This document shows positions 13,045 to 36,576 of a DNA stretch of 37,834 bases, in pieces. The translations under genes and the position numbers were made by a program. This stretch comes from an uncultured Veillonellaceae bacterium (GTDB lineage: Bacteria > Bacillota > Negativicutes > Selenomonadales > Selenomonadaceae): assembly GCA_902766015.1 (NCBI GenBank), contig CACXCC010000010.1, forward strand, positions 1-37,834, in the 5' to 3' direction. The notes beneath the pieces are model-generated. The model was given only the letters and a program-made list of their open reading frames with translations, was not told the DNA's origin and did not search any database. Positions within the stretch are counted from its first letter, which is position 1, and every line of letters begins with the position of its first letter.

Positions 13045-13094
13045 GTCGGCGTGGCAACAGAATGATTGCGTCTTCTTAAATTACTGCAACGTAA

Positions 13095-13268
13095 GGGATC
13101 GTGGTGTGCGGTCAGATGCCATTGCTGTAAAGGCGTTAAGAAAAAATCCGTTTTCGCCGGGAGCCTTATACCTTTTAAGCGCAGCGGTTTGGTATAAGGC
13201 GACTGAATTAAGCGAAAACGGATTTTTTTAGCCGGCAGCTTAGGCATCTGACCGCACACCACGATCCC
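13095..13268. repeat. Nested palindromic element, copy A
   Basis: Triple nested hairpin filling the gap between two convergent genes. The outer arms (13095-13120 and 13243-13268) are a perfect 26 bp inverted repeat beginning GGGATCGTGG. The middle arms AAAAAATCCGTTTTCGC (13141-13157) and its complement (13212-13228) are perfect over 17 bp. The inner arms are GCCTTATACC / GGTATAAGGC (13163-13172 and 13191-13200), closing on the loop TTTTAAGCGCAGCGGTTT. The 5' linker (13121-13140) contains AAAGGCGTTAAG and the 3' linker contains AGCCGGCAGC; both recur in other copies. The A-run and T-run flanking the middle stem could make it a terminator in both directions. Confidence 0.92.
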
Positions 13269-13341
13269 GCCTTTCGTTAATAACATTGGAAGCCAAAGCC
13301 ATGCTTCTGCCCTGCCGGAATTCGATTAACTGACATCAAAA

Positions 13342-13362
13342 AAAGAGCCTTGACGGCTCTTT
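13342..13362 (-). terminator. Terminator of the corA operon
   Basis: Minus-strand AAAGAGCC / GGCTCTTT stem followed by T-run; its upstream arm overlaps the TAA stop codon of the Phd/YefM-like gene. Confidence 0.85.
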
Positions 13363-23786: not shown

Positions 23787-23804
23787 TGTTGACATACTAA
23801 GGCC

Positions 23805-23975
23805 GGGGGACGGGCATCGTTTCCGCCACCATGCTGCCGGCTAAAAAAATCCGTTTTCGCTTAATTGAGTCGCCTGAATCAAACCGCTACGCTTAAACAA
23901 TTCAGGCTCCGGGCGAAAACGGATTTTTTCTTTACGCCTTACGCAGCGAAGCGGCGGAAACGATGCCCATCCCCC
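23805..23975. repeat. Nested palindromic element, copy B1 (reverse orientation)
   Basis: Outer arms of 23 bp (23805-23827 and 23953-23975) with one mismatch, starting GGGGGACGGGCATCG. Middle arms AAAAAAATCCGTTTTCGC (23843-23860) and complement (23913-23929). Inner arms GCCTGAAT / ATTCAGGC (23872-23879, 23900-23907). The loop, read on the minus strand, is TTTAAGCGTAGCGGTTTG. Linkers GCTGCCGGCTA and TTTACGCCTTACGC match the other copies. Confidence 0.92.
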
Positions 23976-24002
23976 TCACTTTTTGTCTGAAAACGCAATG
24001 CA

Positions 24003-24196
24003 GGCGACAAAGGGCGGAGCGGGTCTGATCCGGCTGACTTTGCTGCGAAGAGGCGTACGCAAAAAAATCTCTTTCGCCCGGAGCCTGTTTCTTTTAAGCA
24101 CAGCGGTTTGAAACAGGCGACTCAATTAAGCGAAAGAGATTTTTTTGCAGCCGACAGCATGGAAGCAGGAGCAGGCCCGCCCCGTCCTTTGCCGCC
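24003..24196. repeat. Nested palindromic element, copy B2 (forward orientation)
   Basis: Outer arms 24003-24031 and 24168-24196 match at 24 of 29 positions, two differences being G-U compatible. Middle arms AAAAAAATCTCTTTCGC (24061-24077) and complement (24130-24146) are perfect and differ from copies A and B1 by compensated changes. Inner arms GCCTGTTTC / GAAACAGGC (24083-24091, 24110-24118); loop TTTTAAGCACAGCGGTTT. Confidence 0.92.
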
Positions 24197-31801: not shown

Positions 31802-31992
31802 GGCGACAGGCGCACGGGGCATCGCAGCTCCTTTAAAAGCTGCCGGCTAAAATGGCATCACTTTCGCTTAATTTAGTCGCCTGAATCAAATCGCTACGCT
31901 TAAACAATTCAGGCTCCATGCGAAAGTGATGCCATTTCTTAACGCCTTGTTGCAGCAAATCAGTCGCTGCGATGCCCCGTGCGCCTGTCGCC
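31802..31992. repeat. Nested palindromic element, copy C (reverse orientation)
   Basis: Outer arms 31802-31827 and 31967-31992 are a perfect 26 bp inverted repeat (GGCGACAGGCGCACGGGGCA start). Middle arms AAATGGCATCACTTTCGC (31850-31867) and complement (31920-31937) are perfect over 18 bp but lack the long A/T runs of other copies. Inner arms GCCTGAAT / ATTCAGGC (31879-31886, 31907-31914). The loop and the GCTGCCGGCTA linker are conserved. It separates the two polyamine operons. Confidence 0.92.
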
Positions 31993-36234: not shown

Positions 36235-36274
36235 CGAAAGAGCGCATCGAGGAACCCTCGCAACCGAAAAGTAA

Positions 36275-36395
36275 GGGGCCGCGATGTCGGTTCGTATTCC
36301 ATTGCGGTTAAACGGCGTCAACAAAAAATACGCTTTCGCCCCGCTGCCTGTTTTGTTAAAGCGAAGCGATTTGAAAGCTCGTAAATGAAAGGCAA
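36275..36395. repeat. Half copy of the nested palindromic element (D1)
   Basis: Direct repeat of the left half of copy D2: GGGGCCGCGATGTCGGTTCG outer arm, TTGCGGTTAAACGGCGT linker, AAAAAATACGCTTTCGC middle arm, then GTTAAAGCGAAGCGATTTGAAA loop pieces. The complementary right arms are missing, so it cannot form the full hairpin. Confidence 0.8.
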
Positions 36396-36572
36396 GGGGC
36401 AGCGGCGTCGGCTCGGATTCCCTTGCGGTTAAACGGCGTAAAGAAAAAAATCCACTTTCGCCCCGCCGCCTGTTTTGCTTAAGCGAAGCGATTTGAAACA
36501 GGCGGCGTTAATTAAGCGAAAGTGGATTTTTTTTAGCCGTCAGCCGGGAATCCGAGCCGACGTCGCTGCCCC
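36396..36572. repeat. Nested palindromic element, copy D2 (forward orientation)
   Basis: Outer arms of 27 bp (36396-36422 and 36546-36572) with one mismatch, starting GGGGCAGCGGCGTCGGCTCG. Middle arms AAAAAAATCCACTTTCGC (36444-36461) and complement (36516-36533). Inner arms GCCGCCTGTTT / AAACAGGCGGC (36465-36475, 36496-36506); loop contains TTAAGCGAAGCGATTTG. It ends five bases before the small membrane protein's stop codon on the minus strand and may terminate that transcript. Confidence 0.92.
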
Positions 36573-36576
36573 GTCC

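Follow-up and report, generated by a model that had tools for sequence, protein, structure and literature searches.

An apparently undescribed family of large palindromic repeats with constant loops and covarying arms in a bacterial genome

Known palindromic repeats and hairpin-forming elements

ERIC/IRU elements are MITE-like repeats located between the genes of bacteria, and the double-hairpin elements of Allomyces are mobile hairpin repeats found in the genomes of organelles. A known mutational process, quasipalindrome correction by template switching, predicts perfect arms and two-sided changes that arise without selection on pairing; to our knowledge, it has not been described as keeping up a genome-wide repeat family. 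The stability of the d(GCGAAGC) mini-hairpin extends to GNA loops. The d(GCGAAGC) sequence itself is presented as an extraordinarily stable DNA mini-hairpin (PMC4686876), RU repeats as bacterial MITE-like intergenic repeats (PMC2759123), and the sponge RHE as a hairpin repeat of an organelle genome (PMC2800124). REP elements (GTAG/CGTC) are numerous in intergenic DNA close to the ends of genes, where the flanking genes are convergent or unidirectional; they are found mainly as head-to-head dimers with unequal members, and their stems and spacers are variable. The REP palindromes measure 20-40 bp and carry at their head an unpaired GTAG or CGTC tag, 5' of the stem (PMC3733652).

The repeat described here was analysed in a stretch of 37,834 nucleotides, hereafter referred to as the window. 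Like REP/BIME/REPIN elements, it is intergenic and positioned near gene ends, forms head-to-head dimers of unequal members, and has variable stems and spacers. Unlike the 20-40 bp REP elements, it comprises about 185 nt with three concentric stems; the conserved part is the loops in place of the REP tag, its layers are stackable, and several of its carriers lack a RAYT gene. With regard to the tag, the 5' end of the element reads AACGTAAGGG, and the CGTC present in many copies is located at the 3' end, where it overlaps the arm. The element works like a REP-type repeat, but it should not be classed as one, since it has neither the size nor the tag of a REP and several of its carriers have no RAYT gene.

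With the MITE-like repeats ERIC/IRU and RU (PMC2759123), the element shares a length of 100-200 bp, an imperfect palindromic sequence, an intergenic position and a presumed mobility in trans. These repeats have a roughly constant sequence that includes their ends, whereas in the family under study the ends and arms are hypervariable and the loops alone are constant. The organellar hairpin repeats of Allomyces and of sponges (RHE) are likewise mobile, hairpin-forming and inserted between the genes of compact genomes; unlike the present element they are organellar and shorter. Quasipalindrome correction, finally, is a process and not a family; its likeness to the element lies in the perfect arms and two-sided changes that it predicts.

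A search of the literature found no paper describing these repeats, which is not proof of absence; the large palindromic repeat family appears to be undescribed. Neither the window nor the elements in 18 loci matched Rfam at the gathering score, and the same search of the 18 loci did pick up two unrelated riboregulators and hence worked. A match to the molybdenum/tungsten cofactor riboswitch (RF01055) at L074:1228-1345 in genome G064 adjoins a head-to-head pair of the element, and a pan motif (RF01749) is present at L030:12017-12107.

Architecture of the element and its copies in the window

The three stems (inner, middle and outer) are parted by conserved internal loops, and a copy contains a median of 64 Watson-Crick pairs. 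Matches given below refer to a covariance model, R1, derived from 57 copies in the genome to which the window belongs (G000). The copy that has been dissected most closely, copy A, is composed as follows.

About 13088 to 13271, plus strand: copy A, a complete giant hairpin (R1 match at 13118-13243)
13095 to 13127, plus strand: outer stem, 5' arm, pairing with 13236-13268 (inverted repeat I6, 91% complementary)
13236 to 13268, plus strand: outer stem, 3' arm, partner of 13095-13127
13146 to 13157, plus strand: middle stem, 5' arm ATCCGTTTTCGC, complement at 13212-13223
13212 to 13223, plus strand: middle stem, 3' arm GCGAAAACGGAT, complement at 13146-13157
13163 to 13172, plus strand: inner stem, 5' arm GCCTTATACC, complement at 13191-13200
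13191 to 13200, plus strand: inner stem, 3' arm GGTATAAGGC, complement at 13163-13172
13173 to 13190, plus strand: apical loop TTTTAAGCGCAGCGGTTT with the GCGNAGC motif at 13179-13185, kept across copies and genera

All of the stem strings quoted in the first-pass annotation of this DNA are present together with their exact complements. The extent of 13141-13228 that it proposed takes in the inner two stems, whereas the third, outer stem (13095-13127/13236-13268) lies outside of it. Just downstream of copy A, a short classical terminator, AAAAAAAGAGCCTTGACGGCTCTTTATTT, is located at 13339-13362 and serves the minus-strand genes.

The remaining copies in the window are the following.

23797 to 23985, minus strand: copy B1, left partner in a head-to-head pair with B2 (R1 match at 23829-23953)
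24006 to 24187, plus strand: copy B2, right partner in the head-to-head pair with B1 (R1 match at 24036-24162)
31802 to 31992, minus strand: copy C (R1 match at 31835-31962)
About 36252 to 36376, plus strand: copy D1, the 5' half of an element without its 3' half (direct repeat D3; partial profile match at 36315-36376)
36389 to 36575, plus strand: copy D2, complete (R1 match at 36419-36548)

The window therefore holds five full copies (A, B1, B2, C and D2), whose folding energies are 10 to 14 standard deviations below those of mononucleotide shuffles, and D1 as a sixth, half copy. D1 consists of a 5' arm and loop only and is directly followed by the full copy D2, from whose arm its own unpaired arm has diverged (81% over 77 nt); it provides a natural control for the behaviour of an arm that has no partner.

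While the loops are nearly invariant, the arms differ almost freely from copy to copy, with complementarity kept; in 95 of 103 copies, no 3' outer arm complements the 5' outer arm better than that of the same copy. In G000, variability is highest in the outer arms. Common to the copies are the apical loop AGCGNAGCG and the internal loops GCGTTAAG / TTTAGC, and the cross-genus consensus comprises the apical AAGCGNAGCG, flanked by TTTs and GTTTs, a left internal loop GCGTTAAG and a right internal loop TTTAGC. The N in GCGNAGC is free, with GCA, GAA, GTA and GGA all occurring. A loop of this type fits a DNA hairpin, and it is also possible in RNA.

Several relatives carry additional structures around the hairpin. 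Some of the copies in genome G003 (L142-L149) possess an extra outermost inverted repeat, GGGGCTGTAACGAAATA / TATTTCGTTACAGCCCC, that others lack. In G083 (L081:3030-3345 and L080), a small extra hairpin, e.g., GGGTTTATTG...CAATAAACCC, stands 5' of the giant one, and its arms likewise vary from copy to copy. Five hairpin copies in G082 are embedded in a repeat of ~730 bp (L137:768-1492; also L136, L138, L139 and L140) which has no obvious protein gene and is 96-99% alike in four of the five cases.

Family size and distribution

In G000, a draft assembly of 2.04 Mb in 144 contigs (91% complete), R1 yields 113 matches, nearly all of them full length, and the family there amounts to about 110 long hairpins, a count in which copies at the ends of contigs are missed or cut due to the fragmentation of the assembly. 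With about 190 nt per copy, the family takes up roughly 1% of the genome by simple arithmetic. Gene content would place the lineage in the Negativicutes, probably among the Selenomonadaceae. A DNA query alone finds 43 places in G000, and a first DNA search of 59 other genomes returned no match. The covariance model does pick up diverged homologs within the same family of bacteria, and a second model built from these homologs (R2) has matches in 33 of 100 genomes (the E-values of these short-calibrated models are rough). R2 matches are strong in ten other genera of this bacterial family, and several of the R2-positive genomes contain about 30 or more copies each. The first-pass annotation had called the loops nearly constant on the basis of five copies and had allowed that no conserved loop might exist beyond these; the loops are in fact constant across the approximately 110 copies in G000 and recur in the homologs from ten other genera.

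The same apical loop, TTTGAGCGCAGCGAGTTTA, closes simple hairpins at L175:1264-1347 and L095:1533-1654, in genomes of other families within the class; these weak, short matches might be relatives or simpler hairpins. Beyond the lineage, 17 single matches to the pattern TTTAAGCGNAGCGRTTTGA were found in genome contigs (from a set that may omit near records of the window's genome) and one in viral contigs, none of which extends to an element. No DNA similar to the two copies that were queried was found in plasmids.

Covariation of the stems and the mismatch spectrum

Two-sided changes occur at 17 of the 28 consensus pairs in the alignment of 57 copies from the genome, amounting to 195 two-sided cells as compared to 44.1 +/- 5.4 in shuffles; the covariation score is 0.384 versus 0.112 in shuffles, and sliding the structure by 1-3 columns destroys the signal (score of 0.09 or less). 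The claim that the stems covary is thereby confirmed. In helix 1 of the same alignment, only two one-sided standard changes are present among 912 cells.

A rival reading of such a pattern is a structured RNA (a 3'-end stabiliser, an RNase III substrate or a cis-regulator), the fold of which is selected since the transcript requires the pairing; the strength of the stems, the constancy of the loops, a covariation that far exceeds that of shuffles and the sites downstream of genes all speak for it. The spectrum of mismatches bears directly on this reading. Starting from a pair, C-to-T or A-to-G changes lead to G-U, which RNA tolerates, while the reverse transitions lead to A-C, which it does not; DNA arms that are matched by copying should contain both in equal numbers. 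Isolated mismatches (at least four pairs flanking each side, in a Watson-Crick-only arm alignment) comprise, in distinct contexts, 23 G-U, 19 A-C and 20 transversions among 103 copies in G000 (raw counts 24, 19 and 20, respectively, in about 6,500 paired columns), and G-U and A-C do not differ (binomial p 0.64). Stems of 25 tRNAs from G000 have 34 G-U and 0 A-C in 533 pairs, a control that counts all stem positions whereas the element count is restricted to isolated mismatches, so that the two designs are not identical.

The spectrum in G000 is thus about what unselected mutation would give, and, with G-U about equal to A-C in the elements as compared to 34:0 in tRNA stems, the arms look as if their matching takes place in the DNA, without RNA selection of the kind that tolerates wobble pairs. 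An A-C mismatch reads as G-U on the opposite strand, so that neither strand reveals RNA selection. In relatives, 22 G-U stand against 9 A-C (p = 0.03, uncorrected), a mild excess that would be compatible with some weaker RNA-level constraint there. Intermediates of the kind left by RNA selection are missing from the stems, and the RNA-selection reading of their covariation is for this reason unsupported; copying or exchange of arms at the DNA level explains the stems at least as well as a selected RNA fold. Of the earlier proposal that structure is under selection, the covarying stems and constant loops stand, whereas the selected RNA fold does not. A structured RNA, moreover, does not predict the head-to-head pairs and empty sites dealt with below, and by inspection, single copies have no consistent orientation to the neighbouring gene. 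We therefore regard this explanation as unlikely.

Layers as two-arm modules

The layers reassort between copies as two-arm units. The commonest middle-stem allele, AATCCGTTT, is combined with six different inner alleles and with each of the five outer types, and the copies at L030:7059 and L030:11099 have an almost identical core within outer layers that are unrelated to each other but internally paired. Mutual information between layers is slightly, yet significantly, above that of shuffles (2.75 vs. 2.37, 1.47 vs. 1.24 and 0.92 vs. 0.78; numbers slightly blurred, some CCCCGTTG-type copies having been misread in the automatic allele calling), whereas the arms inside one layer are locked. Layers can also be stacked, as 21 of 102 copies are enclosed by one more paired layer beyond the element; the expectation from mismatched flanks is 1. 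The reassortment may result from swaps of central segments that begin and end in the conserved loops; alternatively, it could stem from saturated two-sided mutation.

Genomic placement

The elements are almost purely intergenic and avoid divergent promoter regions: the neighbouring genes of 93 classified copies, as judged by a simple ORF caller, are convergent in 43 cases, co-directional in 41 and divergent in 9. The only copy inside an ORF in G000, at L134:1466, seems to extend over the beginning of a predicted 171-amino-acid ORF.

Neighbouring copies within 700 bp of each other in G000 are arranged head-to-head (-+) in 25 of 31 cases, with four ++, two -- and no +- arrangements; in relatives, 18 of 19 are -+ and one is --, among the matches listed. 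Overall, 43 of 50 neighbours are head-to-head (the relatives' share again among the matches listed), and a tail-to-tail arrangement never occurs. Local duplication is not an obvious source of these pairs, since the partners are not especially alike in sequence. Some spacers between paired copies hold a separate classical terminator (L113, L038), and most do not; the idea that terminators serve as a general insertion target between paired copies was for this reason abandoned.

The enrichment between convergent genes (43 of 93) would suit duplicated copies of ordinary bidirectional transcription terminators, and two hairpin sites in G083 are occupied by ordinary terminators in the congener G066. 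By inspection, however, the A and T tracts are located within the middle stem and not after the base of the hairpin, and no U tract is present at most 3' ends (CCCGTC...). A terminator, in addition, needs neither conserved loops nor three layers nor head-to-head pairing, and the spacers at L113 and L038 hold separate classical terminators. We consider the terminator explanation quite improbable.

Filled and empty sites, and the search for a mobilising enzyme

Two head-to-head pairs in G064 lie in aligned gaps of 430 and 474 bp, for which the congener G014 has 19 and 8 bp, respectively; one of the two pairs occupies a short gap between co-directional genes. The comparison suggests that such pairs may be gained or lost as units. 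At the sites of two single G083 copies, G066 has 75 and 67 bp, and these contain the ordinary terminators. In these four comparisons (G064/G014 and G083/G066), whose flanks have diverged, no clear target-site duplication was detected, and filled and empty sites differ beyond the insertion itself. Copies in G003 that are 90-95% alike occupy unrelated positions, and the ends of several contigs fall within an element, as expected for a recent burst. Together, the filled and empty sites and the G003 copies support insertion, with loss or replacement possible site by site at this degree of divergence.

Mobilisation by a RAYT (Y1) transposase, as in a strict REP/REPIN family, would account for the intergenic position near gene ends and the head-to-head dimers of unequal members (cf. 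PMC3733652). The Y1_Tnp domain (PF01797), however, had no match in G000 (91% complete), G064, G083, G066 and G074, although control genomes matched, and the four relatives all carry the element. RAYT/Y1 mobilisation was therefore rejected, the element being, moreover, several times the size of a REP and devoid of a GTAG or CGTC tag 5' of the stem; a strict REP/REPIN family is highly improbable. Equally improbable is a MITE, i.e., a DNA transposon that has lost internal sequence, ends in terminal inverted repeats and is moved by a DDE transposase: the extra outermost repeat of G003 resembles a terminal inverted repeat, and the ~730-bp repeat of G082 contains the hairpin, but a constant outer repeat was seen in G003 only, G000 has none and its outer arms are the most variable part, target-site duplications are not clear at the empty sites with their diverged flanks, and the ends of MITEs do not vary with compensation. 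No mobilising transposase was identified.

Loss of SbcCD was considered as a reason for the survival of long palindromes and dismissed, as SbcD (the one subunit looked at) is present: the match in G000 scores 175 bits, over the cut-off, and nearly all relatives have one too.

A proposed mode of spread and upkeep

In our view, the element probably represents a multi-copy, non-coding and non-autonomous family of mobile DNA palindromes of the REP/BIME-like kind, the arms of which are kept complementary by DNA processes. Its spread would follow a DNA route in which a recombinase supplied in trans reads the conserved loop sequences, often on head-to-head dimers, and insertions downstream of genes would be tolerated, as is the case with REP/BIME elements. 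Complementarity of the arms would be maintained by hairpin-templated template switching from one arm to the other, and copies could swap whole central segments by exchanges that begin and end in the conserved loops. As such DNA processes would keep the arms complementary, the stems would covary without selection at the RNA level.

More tentatively, the copies may be self-correcting palindromes. Their layers would then act as interchangeable two-arm modules that diversify nearly freely, while arm copying and loop exchange would keep the copies near-perfect, and this in cells that encode SbcD.

Significance

Covariation is commonly read as proof of a selected RNA structure; in this family, strong covariation is accompanied by a mismatch spectrum that argues against such selection, and the family can serve both as a warning and as a control for covariation tests on repeat families. 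About 110 giant hairpins are tolerated in a genome that encodes SbcD, and together with the empty sites and recent bursts, they make the mobilisation and maintenance of long palindromes in bacteria testable. If the copies are indeed self-correcting, the family would stand for a way of repeat evolution that is new and that produces perfect covariation without selection on pairing.
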